Under the pieces are notes generated by a model. It saw only the letters and a list, made by a program, of their open reading frames with translations. It did not search any database and was not told where the DNA came from. A DNA stretch of 64,000 nt from Seonamhaeicola aphaedonensis (lineage in GTDB: Bacteria > Bacteroidota > Bacteroidia > Flavobacteriales > Flavobacteriaceae). Below are positions 20,862-29,342 of the stretch, one piece after another. Numbering within the stretch: position 1 is the first letter of the stretch; each line of letters begins with the position of its first letter. The position numbers and the translations under genes were made by a program. The stretch is taken from contig NZ_QRDX01000002.1 of NCBI RefSeq assembly GCF_003386195.1, forward strand, positions 279,675-343,674, given 5' to 3'.

Positions 20862-21455
20862 TTATTTATGACGCCTCTTTAATTCTGCTTCAATGTCCTT
20901 TAATGTAAAACCTTTTGCTTGAAGTAACATTAGGTAGTGGAATAATAAATCTGCTGATTCATATAAGAATAACTCATCATTATTGTCCATTGCTTCAATA
21001 ACGGTTTCAACAGCTTCCTCCCCTACTTTTTGAGCTACTTTGTTGATTCCTTTTGAGAATAAACTGGCAACATAAGATTTGGCTGTGTCTTTATTGGCAA
21101 TACGTTCTGCAATCACATCCTCTAAAGCAGAAAAGAAACCGAAGTTTGATGCATTATCTTCACCCCAGCAATTACCTGTACCTTTATGACATGTTGGACC
21201 TATAGGATTTACTTGAATTAATAAGGTATCCGCATCACAATCATTTTTGATAGCAACTAAATTCAAAAAATTTCCACTTTCCTCACCTTTAGTCCATAAA
21301 CGCTGCTTACTTCTACTAAAAAAAGTTACTTTTTTAGTGTTAATTGTTTTTTGATAAGCCTCTTCATTCATATAACCTAACATCAATACATTTTTTGTTG
21401 TAGCATCTTGAATGATAGCTGGTATTAGTCCGTTTGAATCGTATTTTATTTTCAT
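20862..21455 (-). CDS. hisIE: Phosphoribosyl-AMP cyclohydrolase/phosphoribosyl-ATP pyrophosphatase
   Basis: This bifunctional enzyme performs steps 2 and 3 of histidine synthesis. The HisI half (about 1-105) has FFSRSKQRLWTKGEESGNFL and the zinc/metal ligands in NDCDADTLL and GPTCHKGTGNCW. The HisE half (about 110-197) has the pyrophosphatase helix KVGEEAVETVIEAM and DLLFHYLMLL. The 197 residues are the usual fused length. It is the last gene of the his operon, 59 bases after hisF. Confidence 0.95.
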   Translation of the reverse strand: MKIKYDSNGLIPAIIQDATTKNVLMLGYMNEEAYQKTINTKKVTFFSRSKQRLWTKGEESGNFLNLVAIKNDCDADTLLIQVNPIGPTCHKGTGNCWGEDNASNFGFFSALEDVIAERIANKDTAKSYVASLFSKGINKVAQKVGEEAVETVIEAMDNNDELFLYESADLLFHYLMLLQAKGFTLKDIEAELKRRHK

Positions 21456-21476
21456 TTTATTTTAAGTTAAAATAGA

Positions 21477-21510
21477 TCACACTTTGATTGTAATAAGTGT
21501 AACAGTGTGA
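21477..21510. repeat. Inverted repeat between hisF and hisIE
   Basis: TCACACT (21477-21483) pairs with AGTGTGA (21504-21510). Alternatively ACACTT (21479-21484) pairs with AAGTGT (21495-21500). It occupies most of the 59-base gap and resembles the ACACT...AGTGT element between hisD and hisC. Confidence 0.6.
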
Positions 21511-21514
21511 AAAA

Positions 21515-22270
21515 TTAAATTCGAACCTCAATTCCGTTGTCTTTTAATTTTGTCTTTAAATAAGGAATAGGAATTTCACCAAAGTGAAAAACACTTGCCG
21601 CTAAAGCTGCATCCGATTTTCCTTCCGTAAAGGTATCAATAAAATGCTGAACATTTCCTGCTCCACCAGAAGCTATGATGGGAATGTTCAATTCTTCAGA
21701 TAATCTTGCTAAGGCTTTATTAGCAAAACCGCCCTTAGTGCCGTCGTGATTCATTGAAGTAAATAAAATCTCTCCAGCACCTCTCTGCTCTACTTCTTTT
21801 GCCCATTCAAATAAATCTATTTCGGTTGGTATGGTTCCTCCAGCTAAATGTACTTTCCATGTACCATCAATTTCTTTGGCATCAATAGCAACAACAACAC
21901 ATTGGCTACCAAATTTGTCTGCTAATTCATTTACTAATTCAGGACGTTTTACCGCCGAAGAATTAATAGATACTTTATCTGCTCCGTTTTTCAAAAGCGC
22001 ATCAACATGTTCAACAGAAGATATACCACCGCCTACAGTAAATGGAATATTTACCTGTTCTGCCACATGCAATACCATTTCTAAAGTGGTTGCACGTGCT
22101 TCAAGTGTTGCGGTTATATCTAAAAAGACTAACTCATCTGCTCCATAATCGGCATATTGTTTTGCCAATTCTACAGGATCTCCAGCATCACGCAAATCCA
22201 CAAAATTTACACCCTTTACGGTGCGACCGTTTTTAATATCCAAACAAGGAATAATTCTTTTTGTTAGCAT
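21515..22270 (-). CDS. hisF: Imidazole glycerol phosphate synthase, cyclase subunit
   Basis: HisF uses ammonia from HisH and PRFAR to make imidazole glycerol phosphate and AICAR. The 251-residue TIM barrel starts [20 protein letters not shown], with catalytic Asp11. It has [22 protein letters not shown], the second catalytic Asp in [12 protein letters not shown], and IIASGGAGN. It follows hisA with a 64-base gap holding an inverted repeat. Confidence 0.97.
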
Positions 22271-22275
22271 ATTTT

Positions 22276-22335
22276 AGCTTTTGGCTTTTGGCTTTTAGCT
22301 ATTAGCAAAAAACTAACAGCTAAAGGCTAATAGCT
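22276..22335. repeat. Repeat cluster between hisA and hisF
   Basis: AGCTATTAGC (22297-22306) and GCTAATAGCT (22326-22335) form a perfect 10-bp inverted repeat. The second arm overlaps the first base of the hisA stop codon region. Next to it are tandem GCTTTTG/GCTTTTA units (about 22277-22297). The element almost fills the 64-base gap. Confidence 0.65.
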
Positions 22336-23060
22336 TATTTTTCAATTATATAATCTTCCAATTGCTTTAAACTAATTTTATTCTCGTAAATAGCCTTTCC
22401 AATGATAGTACCTTCACAACCTAGTTCTGCTAATTTTGGTAATTCATCAAACTTTGAGATGCCTCCAGATGCAATCAATTTTATACCTTCTAATTCATTT
22501 AGCATTTTTTTATATAAATCAAATGAAGGACCTTCAAGCATGCCATCTTTGGCAATATCCGTACAGATGACATAGGACACACCTTTGCTCATATAATTAT
22601 TTACGAATGGTATTAACTCTTCATCAGATTCTTCTAGCCATCCACTAATCGCTATTTTTTCATTATTAGCATCTGCTCCCAAAATGATTTTATCACTTCC
22701 GAATTTCGACAACCAGCTTTCAAAAACATCTGGTTTCTTAACAGCGATACTACCACCTGTAATTTGGCCAGCACCAGACTCAAAAGCGATTCTCAAATCT
22801 TCATCGGTTTTTAAACCACCTCCAAAATCGATTTTTAAATTGGTTTTAGTTGCAATTTGTTCAAGTACTTTGTGATTTACAATATGACTGGCCTTAGCAC
22901 CATCTAAATCGACCAAATGCAAATATTCCATACCGTGGTCTTCGTATTGCTTAGCAATTTCTAATGGATTCTCATTATACACCTTCTTTGTGTTATAGTC
23001 TCCTTTGGATAACCTAACACACTTACCTTCAATTATATCAATAGCTGGGATTATTCGCAT
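22335..23060 (-). CDS. hisA: ProFAR isomerase (HisA)
   Basis: HisA isomerises ProFAR to PRFAR. The 241-residue barrel begins [20 protein letters not shown], with catalytic Asp8. [22 protein letters not shown], the second catalytic Asp in [14 protein letters not shown], and LIASGGIS are all present. The gene starts 2 bases after the hisH stop, so the HisH-HisA junction is tight and probably translationally coupled. Confidence 0.97.
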
Positions 23061-23061
23061 T

Positions 23062-23700
23062 TTATAATTCTAAAAAGTTCTGTAATATTTTAGCACCTTC
23101 ATTTCCACTTTTTTCAGGGTGGAATTGTGTGCCATAGAAGTTTTCATGTCGTAATGCCGATGCATAATTGATTTCATAATCAGTAGCTGCAATAGTTTCA
23201 TCGCAGTGTTCTGCGTAATAACTATGCACTAAATACATATATTCGTTCTCTTTAATGTCTTTGAACAAATCAGATTTCAAATCCTTAATGACATTCCAGC
23301 CCATTTGTGGCACCTTAACATCCTTTGAAAAGCGTTTAACATTAGTTTGAAAAATCCCTAAACCGTCAGTATTACCTTCCTCGGTATGTAAGCACATGAG
23401 TTGCATTCCTAAACAAATACCTAACACTGGTTGTTTTAGCGTAGGTATCAATTTATCTAAGCCACTCGCTTTAAGCATAGCCATTGCTGAACTTGCCTCA
23501 CCTACCCCAGGAAAAATCACCTTATCTGCTGCCTTTATTTCTTCTGGATTTTTTGACAAGACCGCTTCATATCCCAAGCGATTAAAGGCAAATTGAATAC
23601 TTTTTATATTTCCTGCACCGTAATCTATAATTACAACAGAAGCCCCTCCTAGCCTCCCCGAAGGGGAGGAATCCTTACTCGAATCTACAAACTCAGTCAT
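23062..23700 (-). CDS. hisH: Imidazole glycerol phosphate synthase, glutaminase subunit, with repeat-encoded N-terminal extension
   Basis: HisH hydrolyses glutamine and feeds ammonia to HisF. The class I glutaminase triad is visible: Cys in [11 protein letters not shown], and His and Glu in [11 protein letters not shown]. HisH normally starts almost directly with VIIDYGAGN. Here about 20 extra residues ([20 protein letters not shown]) precede it. They are encoded largely by a CCTCCCC-TTC-GGGGAGG palindrome (23641-23674). No in-frame ATG, GTG or TTG lies between the ATG at 23700 and the conserved core, so the extension is probably translated. It lies between two opposite copies of the same repeat family. 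Confidence 0.93.
23641..23674 (-). repeat. C-rich palindromic repeat inside the hisH coding start
   Basis: Read on the minus strand, the unit is GGATTCCTCCCC-TTC-GGGGAGG followed by CTAGGAGGGGCTT. It shares its order (stem, TAG/TTAG, G-run, GGCTT) with the element at 23732-23761, in opposite orientation. It encodes residues of the HisH N-terminal extension. Confidence 0.8.
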
Positions 23701-23731
23701 ACTTTTATTTCATCATTTTTCACATCCCTGT

Positions 23732-23761
23732 AATTCCCCCTTCGGGGGTTAGGGGGCTTTT
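23732..23761 (+). repeat. C-rich palindromic repeat between hisB and hisH
   Basis: The unit reads AATTCCCCC-TTC-GGGGG, then TTAGGGGGCTTTT, with a CCCCC/GGGGG stem and an alternative CCCCC/GGGGG partner downstream. It is the opposite-strand sibling of the repeat in the hisH start, and it touches the hisB stop codon. As a G+C-rich hairpin it could reduce read-through from hisB into hisH. Confidence 0.8.
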
Positions 23762-24896
23762 ATAACATTCCTTTTGTACTAGGTAGAAACATTTTATTAG
23801 CATCACGCTTCACAGCCATTTTCATGGCTTTAGCAAAGGCCTTGAAAATACCTTCAATTTTATGGTGTTCATTTACACCTTCTGCTTTGATGTTTAAATT
23901 ACATTTGGCGCCATCAGTAAACGATTTAAATAGGTGGAAAAACATTTCTGTTGGCATATCCCCTATTTTTTCTCGCTTAAATTCTGCGTCCCATTCTAAC
24001 CAATTTCTTCCTCCAAAATCAACGGCTACTTGCGCTAAACAATCATCCATTGGCAGGCAGAACCCATAGCGTTCGACACCTAATTTATTGCCTAATGCTT
24101 TGTTGAAAACTTCTCCTAAAGCAATCATGGTATCCTCAATAGTGTGGTGTTCATCAACTTCTAAATCACCATTTACTTTTATGGTTAAATCCATGGCACC
24201 GTGACGCCCAATTTGATCTAACATATGGTCAAAAAATGACAACCCTGTATCTATATTATTTTCACCAGAACCATCCAAATTTAATTTTATATATATCTGA
24301 GTTTCATTGGTGTTACGTGTAATTTCTTCAACTCTATCTTCAAGTTTTAAAAACTCATAAATTTCTTTCCAGTCTGTACTAGTTAATGCGATACAATCCT
24401 GTATTTCTTTTATAGAACCCTCAATTTCATCAGCTCCCAGCTTAGGGTTTTCTGAAAGATATATGCCTTTTGCCCCTAAGTTTTTAGCTAGTTCCATATC
24501 GGTTATTCTATCTCCTAACACAAATGAATTTGCTAAATCATAGTCTTCGGAAAAGTATTGAGTTAACAAGCCAGTTCTAGGTTTACGTGTATCGGCATTT
24601 TCATTAGGAAAAGTTTTATCAATATGGATAGCAGTAAACTCTACACCTTCTTTTTTAAACGCCTCAATAATTTTATTTTGAGCTGGCCAAAAGGTATCTT
24701 CTGGAAAGGATTCTGTCCCTAAGCCATCCTGATTGGTGACCATTACCAGTTCATAATCTAATTCGCTAGCAATTTTTGCCATGTACTGAAACACTTTAGG
24801 GTAAAACTCTAATTTTTCCAAACTATCTAATTGGCAATCTACTGGCGGTTCTAATACCAAGGTGCCGTCTCTGTCTATAAACAATACTTTTTTCAT
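23760..24896 (-). CDS. hisB: Bifunctional histidinol-phosphatase/imidazoleglycerol-phosphate dehydratase
   Basis: The N-terminal HAD phosphatase domain (about 1-165) shows [23 protein letters not shown] and [17 protein letters not shown]. The C-terminal IGPD domain (about 190-378) shows the manganese-binding [13 protein letters not shown] and [17 protein letters not shown], plus [14 protein letters not shown]. The fused protein performs steps 6 and 8 of the pathway. The 378 residues are close to the 355 of the enterobacterial fusion. It overlaps hisC by 4 bases. Confidence 0.96.
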
Positions 24897-25930
24897 GATA
24901 TAGAATTTAAAGCATCTATTAGTATACTACTCTCCTCAGGTGTTCCAACTGTAAAACGCAAACAGTTTTCACAACCTGGCTGTGTGGTTCTATTTCTTAT
25001 GACGATACCCTTTTCAATAAGCTGATTATAGCGCATGGTAGCATTATCAACTTTAGCTAAAATAAAATTAGCATCTGAAGGATATATTTTCGATACAAAA
25101 GAAACTGCTTTAAGTTTATTAACCAAATTATCCCTTTCCTTTAAAATGAATTGTACCTGACTTTTGATTAATTCGTGATTTTTAAGTTGTTCTATAGCCC
25201 GTTGTTGCGTCAACTCATTCACATTATAAGGCGGTTTAATATTATTTAAAACCGAAATAATTTCTTTTGAAGCATAGCAAATCCCCAATCGAATACCAGC
25301 CATTCCATACGCTTTAGACAAAGTTTGGGTGACGATTAAATTAGGAAACTCATCTAACCTTTCAATCCAGCTTGGAATATCAGAAAAGTCTATATAAGCC
25401 TCATCAATAACCACAACACCATTAAACTCTTTTAGTAATCTTTCAATAGATTCTTGAGAAAAACTATTACCTGTTGGATTGTTTGGTGAGCACAAAAACA
25501 AAAGTTTGCTATTTTCATCTGCTATACCCAAAATCTTATCGACATGTGGTTGAAAATCATCAGATAATTGGACCTCTTTTATGTCAATTGCATTAATATT
25601 AGCCAATACACTGTACATGCCATAGGTTGGCGGCAAAGTGATAATATTATCTATATTTGGTTCACAAAATGCTCTAAAAATTAAATCTAGAACTTCATCA
25701 CTTCCATTACCCAACAAAATATTCTCTACAGGAATTCCTTTTAAATTCGAAAGTAAATCTTTTACTGTTCTTTGTTGGGGGTCTGGATAACGATTTACAC
25801 CATTCTCATAAGGATTCTCATTAGCATCTAAAAACACCATGTTATCCGTTGTACCCTTGAACTCATCTCTAGCCGAAGAGTAAGGTTTCAGTGCCTTTAT
25901 ACTGGGTCTTATTAAATCTAAAATACTCAT
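24893..25930 (-). CDS. hisC: Histidinol-phosphate aminotransferase
   Basis: This PLP enzyme moves the amino group from glutamate to imidazole acetol phosphate. The 345 residues show [12 protein letters not shown] near the start, [29 protein letters not shown] and [10 protein letters not shown]. The PLP lysine is in [16 protein letters not shown], and [17 protein letters not shown] lies near the end. Its stop overlaps the hisB start in ATGA. Confidence 0.97.
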
Positions 25931-25939
25931 TGTACTCTC

Positions 25940-26021
25940 ACACTGAATTCATTTCAGTGTCTTATTAGTTTTGAGATGCTGAAACAACACTTCGATTGCG
26001 CTCAGTGTAACAGTTCAGCAT
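25940..26021. repeat. Two inverted repeats between hisD and hisC
   Basis: ACACTGAA (25940-25947) pairs with TTCAGTGT (25953-25960). ATGCTGAA (25976-25983) pairs with TTCAGCAT (26014-26021), and inside the latter ACACT pairs with AGTGT. The core ACTTCGATTGCGCTCAGTGT resembles a repeat common in flavobacterial genomes. It fills nearly all of the 99-base gap. Confidence 0.7.
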
Positions 26022-26029
26022 GAAAAATA

Positions 26030-27316
26030 TTATTTTTTTAAATCCTTTAATCTAATGGTTACAGCATTTTTGTGTGCTTGTAAGCCTTCAGCTTCTGCCA
26101 TTAATTCTATAGTCTCACCAATATTCAAAATACCTTCTTTAGATATCTTTTGAAAGGTCATACTCTTTTGAAAGCTGTCTAAATTAACTCCAGAATACGC
26201 TTTACTAAATCCATTGGTTGGTAAGGTATGATTGGTTCCAGAAGCATAATCTCCTGCACTTTCTGGGGTATAATCACCAATAAAAACAGAACCAGCGTTT
26301 CTTATACCATTCACATAGTATTCTTCATTTTCTGTACAGATTATAAAGTGCTCTGGTCCGTAATTATTAATTAATTCTAAAGCAGTCTGGTCATCTTCTA
26401 CATATATCAACTTAGAATTATCAATGGCTTTTTCAGCGATATCCTTTCTAGGTAAAACAGCAACTTGTGAACTCACTTCCTTAGAAACTTTAGCAATCAT
26501 TTCTTTTGAAGTTGATACTAAGATTACTTGACTATCGGTGCCATGTTCTGCCTGACTCAATAAATCTGAGGCCACATATGCAGGATTTGCACTTTTATCT
26601 ACAACGACTAATAATTCACTAGGCCCAGCAGGCATATCTATAGCCACACCATATTTTGTGGCTAACTGTTTTGCAACCGTTACAAACTGATTTCCGGGTC
26701 CGAAAATTTTATATACTTGTGGAATACTCTTTGTTCCAAACGTTAGAGCTGCTACGGCTTGTATTCCTCCAACTTTAAAAATCTTAGTAATGCCACAAAG
26801 TTTGGCAGCATATAATATTTCCGCCGCTAATTTCCCTTCTTTATTAGGTGGAGAACATAATACAATTTCATTACAACCTGCAATTTGCGCCGGAGCGGCT
26901 AACATTAAAACTGTAGAAAATAAAGGCGCTGTTCCTCCAGGAATATACAATCCTATACTTTCAATAGCACGCTTTTCTTGCCAGCATTGAACACCATTGG
27001 CTGTTTCTATACTAACTCTCGATGTTTTTTGAGCAGCATGAAAGGTTTTTATATTCTTTTTAGCCATTTTTATGGCGTTCTTCAAAGCCTCTGGAATTGT
27101 TTCAATAGCGTCTTCAATTTCTTCATCAGATACTAAATTACTATCTAGAAGTACCTTATCAAAGCGCTGGGTATATTTACGTATGGCTTCATCTCCATTA
27201 TTCTGAACATCTGTAAAAACTTCACTAACAATACCTTCAATATCATTAACAGTTTTTGTAGGACGCTTAAGAATATCAACCCAGGAATCTTTATTTGGAT
27301 TTTCAATTACTTTCAT
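26030..27316 (-). CDS. hisD: Histidinol dehydrogenase
   Basis: HisD catalyses the last two steps, oxidising histidinol to histidine with 2 NAD. The 428 residues are full length. Recognisable parts are IESIGLYIPGGTAPLFSTVL, MPAGPSELLVV, the zinc/substrate ligands in SQAEHGTDSQ and GDYASGTNHTLPTNG, and the conserved GPEHFII. It lies 42 bases after hisG, with a palindromic repeat in the gap. Confidence 0.97.
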   Translation of the reverse strand: MKVIENPNKDSWVDILKRPTKTVNDIEGIVSEVFTDVQNNGDEAIRKYTQRFDKVLLDSNLVSDEEIEDAIETIPEALKNAIKMAKKNIKTFHAAQKTSRVSIETANGVQCWQEKRAIESIGLYIPGGTAPLFSTVLMLAAPAQIAGCNEIVLCSPPNKEGKLAAEILYAAKLCGITKIFKVGGIQAVAALTFGTKSIPQVYKIFGPGNQFVTVAKQLATKYGVAIDMPAGPSELLVVVDKSANPAYVASDLLSQAEHGTDSQVILVSTSKEMIAKVSKEVSSQVAVLPRKDIAEKAIDNSKLIYVEDDQTALELINNYGPEHFIICTENEEYYVNGIRNAGSVFIGDYTPESAGDYASGTNHTLPTNGFSKAYSGVNLDSFQKSMTFQKISKEGILNIGETIELMAEAEGLQAHKNAVTIRLKDLKK

Positions 27317-28216: not shown

Positions 28217-28263
28217 TTTGATTTTGTTATGAGTTTGAAACCACCTAGTTGATTTTAGAAATG

Positions 28264-28294
28264 AAAAACCCGCTTGATGGTCTCAAACGGGTTT
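28264..28294 (-). terminator. his operon attenuator terminator
   Basis: On the minus strand, AACCCGTTTGA pairs with TCAAGCGGGTT (11 bp with one G-T pair; loop of about 5 bases), followed by TTTTTC. It lies between the leader ORF stop (28326) and the hisG start (28216), so it must be passed for the operon to be expressed. Its 5' arm includes CGTTTGAGA, which can instead pair with leader codons 14-16. Confidence 0.85.
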
Positions 28295-28325
28295 AAATAT
28301 ATTTTTGATTTTATTCAATACATTT

Positions 28326-28379
28326 TCACTTCGCTTGAGAGCAAATATGAAAATGATGATGTGTTTGAATAAAAGTCAT
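28326..28379 (-). CDS. hisL: Histidine leader peptide
   Basis: The ORF ATG...TGA encodes MTFIQTHHHFHICSQAK. Codons 7-11 are His-His-His-Phe-His, four CAT codons in five. It begins about 15 bases after a promoter -7 box and ends 32 bases before the attenuator terminator. TCTCAAGCG (28332-28340, codons 14-16) can pair with CGTTTGAGA (28281-28289) in the terminator's 5' arm. A ribosome stalled on the His codons would leave that segment free to form the antiterminator; a ribosome at the stop would cover it and let the terminator form. This is inferred from layout; no expression data are available here. Confidence 0.85.
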   Translation of the reverse strand: MTFIQTHHHFHICSQAK

Positions 28380-28395
28380 TTTTACTTTGTTTCTG

Positions 28396-28428
28396 CAAAT
28401 ATCTATAAAACTTGATTAAAATTCCAAA
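28396..28428 (-). promoter_or_regulatory. his operon promoter
   Basis: On the minus strand TTTG (28425-28428) and GATATTTG (28396-28403) fit the Bacteroidota -33/-7 pattern with 21 bases between, with one mismatch in TAnnTTTG. Transcription would start close to 28390, giving a short untranslated stretch before the leader ATG at 28379. The rest of the gap to 28526 is AT-rich with no other signal. Confidence 0.6.
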
Positions 28429-28526: not shown

Positions 28527-29342
28527 TTATTGATTTCCTAAGATGAGAGGTAATCCACTGTCTCCAGAACCAATCACTATTACCTTACTGTTTGGTGATT
28601 CTGCTAATTTGTTAGTAGCTTCAATGCCTTTATCTTGCAAAATTTGATCATTTAATGAAGCACTTAAAATTCTATTGGCATCTGCTTTACCTTGCGCTTC
28701 AATACGTTGTCTTTCTGCTTCTTTTTCGGCTGTTACTAACCTAAACTCGTACTCCAGAGACTCTTGTTCCTGTTTTAATTTACGCTCTATAGCATCTTTA
28801 ATTGTAGGTGGTAAGGTCACATCTCTTACTAGTATTTCATCTAGAATGATATACTGATCACTTACAATTTTCTTTGTTTCTTCAAAAATCTCAGCTTGTA
28901 TAGCATCTCTTTTACTTGAGTATAATTGCTCTGGTGTATAGCGCCCTACAACACTTCTAGCTGCAGATCTTATGGTTGGCAATAAAATACGATTTAAGTA
29001 ATTTTCACCAATTTCTTGATGCAACTTTCCTAATTCATCATATTTAGGCTTATACCAAGCTGAAGCATCTAATTGAATATCTAATCCGTTAGATGATAAA
29101 ACCTTCATTTTTTCAAAAATTTCTTGTCTTCTAACTTCATAAATATACACTTTGTTCCAAGGCGCAACAATATGAAACCCTTCTCCTAATGGCGGTTGAT
29201 CTGTAACAACACCTTTATCAAAAGTCTTATAAAGCACTCCTGCCTGACCAGAACCAATAGTTACGGCAGATTTAGCAATTACAATTACTAGTATGATGAT
29301 TCCAATTATTATTGGTAATCCTATTTTAGGTAATTTTTCCAT
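28527..29342 (-). CDS. Prohibitin/SPFH-domain membrane protein
   Basis: The 271-residue protein has one N-terminal membrane segment (about 9-29) and a prohibitin-type SPFH/band 7 domain: GSGQAGVLYKTF, GLDIQLDASAWYKP, NRILLPTIRSAARSVVGRYTPEQLYSSKR. A long charged coiled coil (about 185-235, REREAEAE-like KEAERQRIEAQGKADANRI) follows. Such proteins form inner-membrane scaffolds and often work with FtsH-type proteases. It is monocistronic or starts a new unit, ending about 150 bases before the his promoter. Confidence 0.85.
   Translation of the reverse strand: MEKLPKIGLPIIIGIIILVIVIAKSAVTIGSGQAGVLYKTFDKGVVTDQPPLGEGFHIVAPWNKVYIYEVRRQEIFEKMKVLSSNGLDIQLDASAWYKPKYDELGKLHQEIGENYLNRILLPTIRSAARSVVGRYTPEQLYSSKRDAIQAEIFEETKKIVSDQYIILDEILVRDVTLPPTIKDAIERKLKQEQESLEYEFRLVTAEKEAERQRIEAQGKADANRILSASLNDQILQDKGIEATNKLAESPNSKVIVIGSGDSGLPLILGNQ

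Follow-up and report, generated by a model that had tools for sequence, protein, structure and literature searches.

The his locus of Seonamhaeicola aphaedonensis

The window analysed here is a stretch of 64,000 nucleotides of Seonamhaeicola aphaedonensis DNA. The putative attenuator element lies on its minus strand, in the order leader ORF, terminator and hisG. The genes behind the leader follow the order hisGDCBHAFIE, a complete his gene set according to the NCBIfam matches. A further gene on the same strand (28527-29342), which by our own reading of the sequence presumably encodes a band-7/prohibitin-like protein, ends 147 nt before the leader ATG. The features of the locus are listed below.

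28396-28428, minus strand: promoter-like boxes, TTTGG (28428-28424) and GATATTTG (28403-28396), read from the sequence
28379-28326, minus strand: leader peptide ORF MTFIQTHHHFHICSQAK, ATG to TGA, read from the sequence
28361-28347, minus strand: regulatory codons His-His-His-Phe-His (CAT CAT CAT TTT CAT), read from the sequence
28341-28355, minus strand: segment 1, CATTTTCATATTTGC, which overlaps the His codons and supplies the 5' strand of the protector hairpin, from MFE folding and covariation
28321-28340, minus strand: segment 2, with the antiterminator arm TCTCAAGCG (28340-28332) continuing into the 3' arm of the protector hairpin, GCGAAGTGAAAATG (28334-28321)
28276-28294, minus strand: segment 3, AAACCCGTTTGAGACCATC, which can pair with segments 2, 4 and 5 and comprises the 5' arm of the terminator together with its loop
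28266-28277, minus strand: segment 4, terminator 3' arm, with a short T run behind it
28233-28245, minus strand: segment 5, GGTGGTTTCAAAC, at a distance of 16 nt from the hisG AUG; it forms 13 pairs with GTTTGAGACCATC in segment 3 and the loop
28216-27359, minus strand: hisG, first gene of the operon (TIGR00070 and TIGR03455)
20862-27316, minus strand: hisD, hisC, hisB, hisH, hisA, hisF and hisIE, the remaining genes of the presumed his operon (NCBIfam matches and ORFs)

The sequence-only reading of this DNA had proposed a leader with four His codons in five before hisG, and the HHHFH run was indeed located at these positions. The folding of the leader region has a z score of -6.5, which was reached by 0 of 200 shuffles. 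The terminator (28294-28266, minus strand) consists of 12 pairs and a 5-nt loop followed by TTCATTTCTA; the hairpin claimed before hisG is thus present, but its T-tract is a short and interrupted run. Among the terminator-like sites between 24000 and 32000 it is at the top of the list, with 6 sites found against a shuffle mean of 2.9, which is a mild enrichment.

The antiterminator claimed between the leader and the terminator 5' arm (9 bp with one G-T) was also found: TCTCAAGCG (28340-28332) pairs with CGTTTGAGA (28289-28281) through 9 pairs, one of them G-U. The further claim that this antiterminator is a one-arm, leader-internal and simpler solution was contradicted by a covarying protector hairpin (1:2), in which the His codons pair with the last part of the leader and the nucleotides that follow. 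Because this hairpin exists, the design is the classical one of four segments, with the pairings 1:2, 2:3 and 3:4. Judged from sequence comparison and modelling, we are highly confident that the his leader is a ribosome-mediated transcription attenuator of this design, to which a fifth segment is added.

The proposed promoter is the weakest part of the original observation. TTTGG stands 20 nt upstream of GATATTTG, and we take the two to be a Bacteroidota-type promoter box pair. Of 77 loci, 22 have an exact TANNTTTG no more than 45 nt from the leader ATG, compared with 2.9% in shuffles; the window's box matches it at 7 of 8 bases. A scan for sigma-70 promoters, however, listed none before the leader on the minus strand, and its overall yield was at chance (36 found, 36.5 expected).

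Conservation of the leader and the terminator

Conservation of the His codons upstream of hisG was seen in all three sets of relatives. Among the best matches, 80 close homologous loci, a His-rich leader ORF was present within 400 nt before hisG in 78. In the comparison with chance, 79 of 80 upstream regions had such a leader; shuffled regions gave a mean of 0.95 in 80 and the opposite strand 2 in 80. The terminator was found in 80 of 81 regions (the homologues and the window). The exception, L059, has only 180 nt upstream, without a terminator or a His-rich leader of this type. In L051, the other locus counted as lacking the leader, the terminator is present, and by our own reading there is a leader that starts with TTG and has two Tyr codons besides two His codons.

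A covariance model of the element matched 128 of 149 Flavobacteriaceae genomes, one per genus. Eighty of these matches were fetched, mostly strong ones together with a block of weak ones, and they contained the leader in 78 and a terminator-like hairpin in all 80. The class sample comprised 119 genomes, 57 of them with a hisG match; 55 upstream regions were used, the window's own locus and one very weak match being left out. Short ORFs with at least three His per six residues stood before hisG in 49 of the 55 regions (46 with ATG), whereas the shuffles gave a mean of 1.0 and a maximum of 5, and the opposite strand gave 0. In 42 of these regions we found a hairpin with T behind it and a folding energy of -12 kcal/mol or better; in four cases it overlaps the leader ORF.

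Six class relatives (L118, L120, L122, L126, L130 and L132) have His-rich leaders, and no terminator was recognised before their hisG. These leaders are perhaps attenuators of translation rather than transcription.

Leaders before trpE (L166-L192 and L194) and pheA (L137-L165) were surveyed in 31 Flavobacteriaceae genomes. Among the strong trpE matches, a leader with a Trp pair or triplet was found in 28 of 29, L193 being unreadable (a raw count, without shuffle control). Before pheA, Phe- and Tyr-rich leaders that looked plausible by eye were found in 22 of 29 (again a raw count, without shuffle control). Most of these leaders are then followed by a terminator-like hairpin. From their sequences, the trpE and pheA leaders appear to be a set of classical attenuators.

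That the hisG hairpin is a mere terminator of the upstream transcript, with the leader ORF untranslated or unrelated, fits the same-strand gene that ends shortly before the leader, but is hardly credible in view of the His-rich leaders in 49 of 55 class regions versus 0 of 55 on the opposite strand, and of the Trp-run and Phe-rich leaders before trpE and pheA in Flavobacteriaceae.

Covariation of the stems

Covariation was scored on a MAFFT alignment of 78 rows, which were also used in the folding tests; L059 was left out, and so were L004 and L051, which have no uninterrupted CAT or CAC triplet. For the protector hairpin 1:2, double changes were found at 9 of 15 pairs, a pair count that was reached by 45 of 500 shuffles. 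The number of double-change cells was 70, compared with 35 in the shuffles, and was reached by 0 of 500. The terminator 3:4 covaries as well and pairs in 97.4% of alignment cells.

Compensatory changes in the competing stems had been expected from the sequence-only reading, and for the antiterminator the outcome was divided. 2:3 pairs in 92.0% of alignment cells, and its covariation score was reached by only 1 of 500 shuffles, but just 2 of its pairs have changes on both sides, which was equalled by 146 of 500 shuffles. The 2:3 pairing within the own locus exceeds the best of 5000 permutations. Segment 2 often has the CAGG form, which pairs with either version of segment 3 (GTTTGA, or GTCTGA/ATCTGA); a clear double change in 2:3 was seen in L244 only (CATCTGAA with TTCAGGTG). 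Shuffle and permutation counts of this kind leave the relatedness of the loci in, and the set with one genome per genus reduces it.

An outer helix between the leader start and the bases behind the stop pairs in 59.2% of cells, and sliding it by one column gave nearly equal covariation. In L030, L037, L078 and L204 the leader peptide is shortened where the relatives end in Gln-Ala-Arg or similar. In the first three of these, a stop codon replaces the leader Gln, the base still pairs as G-U and the pairing of segment 2 is kept. The RNA therefore seems to be more constrained than the end of the peptide in these loci.

Response to ribosome stalling in folding tests

The switch was tested in silico, with the ribosome footprint kept unpaired and segment 4 not yet transcribed. 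At 37 °C and with the ribosome at His codon 1, 2 or 3, 2:3 formed in 78 of 78 leaders. It formed in 0 of 78 with the ribosome at the stop codon and in 42 of 78 without a ribosome. In the fetched genera, from which 3 of 80 loci were excluded, 2:3 formed in 75 of 77 when the ribosome stalled at His codon 2, in 1 of 77 at the stop codon and in 33 of 77 without a ribosome. The 42 of 78 and 33 of 77 also mean that the protection by 1:2 is partial.

A ribosome at codon 4, which is not a His codon, also led to 2:3 in 72 of 78 leaders, so the histidine specificity rests only on where the ribosomes stall. When segment 4 was present and the transcript ended at the terminator, 2:3 gained on 3:4 in 0 of 78 at equilibrium. 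Since 3:4 wins once segment 4 is there, the antiterminator has to fold earlier than the terminator, as it does in attenuators already known. The modelled switch would require kinetic folding and coupled transcription and translation.

The leader, segments 1 to 5, the covariation and the stall-dependent behaviour of the model are all supported by the comparisons and foldings; what we infer is leader translation, termination, dependence on histidine and any effect of segment 5. When charged tRNA-His is sufficient, a ribosome at the leader stop would cover segment 2, and 3:4 would form and stop transcription before hisG. When it is scarce, stalling on the His codons would open 1:2 and free segment 2; with segment 4 still unmade, segment 2 would pair with segment 3 and let RNA polymerase read on. 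If the leader is untranslated, 1:2 would compete with 2:3 and the balance would move towards termination.

Taken together, comparison of the leaders, covariation and the folding switch strongly support the ribosome-mediated histidine attenuation that had been proposed before hisG. Classical attenuation needs RNA polymerase and the ribosome close together, and our literature search did not find a demonstration of transcription-translation coupling in Bacteroidota. The hisG attenuators, the class-wide His leaders and the trpE and pheA leaders make such coupling a testable prediction for this phylum.

Relation to known attenuators

The his leader peptide of E. coli has seven His codons. The enterobacterial his leader (RF00514) shares with the element described here the run of His codons, the mutually exclusive terminator and antiterminator and the position before hisG; the present element differs in having four His codons and segment 5 and in belonging to another phylum. 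Between 26000 and 38000 of the window, neither RF00514 (His_leader) nor a T-box riboswitch was matched by the Rfam models at E values up to 5; the idea of a known Rfam element was dropped for lack of a match.

In Flavobacterium psychrophilum, clues to leader-peptide attenuation before amino-acid operons and structured 5' transcripts before hisG and pheA have been reported, and the hisG 5' element was described as conserved in Flavobacteriaceae and without an Rfam match (PMC9723704, accessible part). It is probably the same element as ours. Part of the core finding has therefore already been published, and a Bacteroidota version is not wholly undescribed. The accessible account gives no leader sequence, segments, covariation or segment 5 (PMC9723704). 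A search of the openly accessible literature found no description of the attenuator segments including segment 5.

Histidine attenuators have also been reported in Firmicutes, namely in the Bacillus cereus group, Eubacteriales and Erysipelotrichales (PMC9413887). Like ours, they were found by comparison and have a His-rich leader, a terminator and an antiterminator; the accessible part of that paper does not mention an RNA segment that pairs near the start of the first gene. The element described here is very likely a genuine ribosome-mediated his attenuator, in a phylum in which we found such attenuation to be little described.

A fifth segment before hisG

Segment 5 was overlooked in the first reading of the sequence. 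Its pairing with segment 3 stood out in 66 of 80 loci, with no more than 10 of 200 shuffles reaching it, and did so again in 59 of 78 loci of a new set with one genome per genus (the 80 fetched loci minus one duplicate of an earlier locus and minus L237, which has no testable stretch). It did not stand out in the remaining 14 and 19 loci, respectively, and four of these carry an insertion downstream of the terminator. In both locus sets, the 3:5 pairing of the own locus exceeded the best of 5000 arm permutations. With the stem alone used to locate segment 5, the pairing to the variable loop was still above all 10000 permutations. In a matrix at the level of loop classes, the own class ranked first of 26 in 10 of 26 classes, and last or next-to-last in two.

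The position of segment 5 is nearly fixed. The distance from its 3' end to the AUG was 11-21 nt in 63 of 65 loci (those of the 78 with a duplex of -8 kcal/mol or better) and 12-22 nt in all 54 clear duplexes of the second set, which was measured from the true hisG start (no start was found in 10 of 80). Segment 5 is a third, covarying partner for the terminator arm.

The kind of mismatch was also informative. Among distinct arm pairs over the matching threshold (24 of 85 and 21 of 79 loci fell below it), the cells of 3:5 that are not Watson-Crick pairs contained G-U and A-C at 73:9, and at 56:14 in the second set. The controls gave 1122:731 (1.5:1) in shuffles and 2759:939 with the arms swapped between loci, the latter above the shuffles. 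Because G-U far exceeds A-C, this result points to pairing of segment 5 as RNA, in the sense direction.

In nine loci (L088, L089, L237, L239, L240, L242, L243, L244 and L269) segment 3 has GTCTGA or ATCTGA instead of GTTTGA and, by eye, the pairing with segment 5 is kept through a change from U-A to C-G. On the alignment, the double-change pair count of 3:5 was reached by 439 of 500 shuffles. 3:5 pairs in 62.6% of cells of the MAFFT alignment and in 75.3% when slid by one column, and we read the lower value as misregister.

Beyond the close relatives, 7 of 24 testable loci of the class sample passed the segment 5 test. Five are of the same type: L082 and L084 from Flavobacteriaceae, L088 from the same order, and L089 and L110 from other families. 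The other two are L105, where the hairpin was wrongly chosen, and L129. In many other families it is the terminator whose end lies no more than 25 nt from the AUG.

Among the trpE and pheA attenuators, segment 5 was found in 0 of 17 testable loci (0 of 11 for trpE and 0 of 6 for pheA with room for it), in a test that allowed an arm up to three bases longer than for hisG and that included L138 and L149, whose hairpins may not be true terminators. These zeros rule out a general trait of attenuators in Flavobacteriaceae genomes and also argue against a test artefact. By sequence comparison, segment 5 looks like one new conserved part of a known kind of attenuator, and looks selected as RNA.

In five loci (L002, L020, L042, L052 and L054) the distance from the terminator to hisG is 87-129 nt, beyond that of most loci, with palindromes between the two (by eye). 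Pairing of segment 5 was weak in L002 and did not stand out in the other four.

What the fifth segment may do

In read-through transcripts, segment 5 could pair with segment 3 and its loop, and its place suggests control of hisG initiation. We infer that 3:5 may hold back ribosome entry at hisG, so that 2:3 would open both checkpoints; we consider this possible, though short of probable. In Flavobacteriaceae and near relatives the element might then be a five-segment switch, in which a single stall sets first termination (2:3 versus 3:4) and then, on completed mRNAs, the start of hisG (2:3 versus 3:5), a proposal that we make tentatively. If it is true, one RNA strand, the terminator 5' arm with its loop, would have three competing partners, and the switch would be a translational control by tRNA charging without Shine-Dalgarno pairing. 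The leaders would also be a natural assay of initiation, because they would be translated by ribosomes without such pairing.

For RNA from the terminator to hisG codon 10, the predicted probability of 3:5 was above 0.5 in only a few loci, 5 of 78 at 37 °C and 9 of 78 at 20 °C. The window is among these few, with 0.97 and 1.0, respectively. When the leader was included with the ribosome at the stop, 3:5 exceeded 3:4 in 4 and 7 of 78. With the rival segment masked, 3:4 was better than 3:5 by a median of 8.9 kcal/mol (2.6 in the window). Simple cis sequestration by 3:5 at equilibrium is thus unsupported in most loci, where 3:4 outcompetes 3:5. Segment 5 may also take part in a partial pseudoknot, act in trans or influence decay.

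The Bacillus subtilis trp (TRAP) and tlrB leaders are also cases of one leader serving termination and translation control (PMC12288461, accessible part). They respond to the TRAP protein and, through a leader peptide, to tylosin, whereas the signal here would be histidine starvation. The trp leader hides a Shine-Dalgarno sequence (PMC12288461), whereas Bacteroidia are reported, in the accessible text of another paper, to fail to recognise such sequences (PMC9976891).

Segment 5 could instead act on the stability or processing of the read-through mRNA and not on translation. A helix at the RNA level at a nearly fixed place of the 5' UTR would suit this explanation, but the fixed distance to the AUG fits translation better, and we regard it as unlikely. 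Action in trans, for which rnTrpL is a precedent as a trans-acting attenuator RNA, seems quite improbable to us: leader RNA that was terminated while histidine was abundant would use segment 3 and the loop to pair with segment 5 on full-length hisG mRNAs, and would repress them. The arm and loop are complementary to a site mostly 11-22 nt before the AUG, as this would demand, but the same 3:4 hairpin must open and the cis copy is nearer. A DNA-level inverted repeat, whether an operator or a palindrome kept by template switching, is very unlikely: segment 5 does repeat a portion of the terminator in inverted form, but the excess of G-U over A-C is unpredicted by DNA mechanisms and disfavours a palindrome, and the pairing is kept while the sequence varies.

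In L006, L012, L018, L033 and L044, the pairing of segment 5 could apparently be lengthened by the preceding bases so as to include the terminator 3' arm. Alternatively, these bases seem able to form another hairpin with a loop that complements the terminator loop (L006, L018 and L033 were folded; L012 and L044 were judged by eye).
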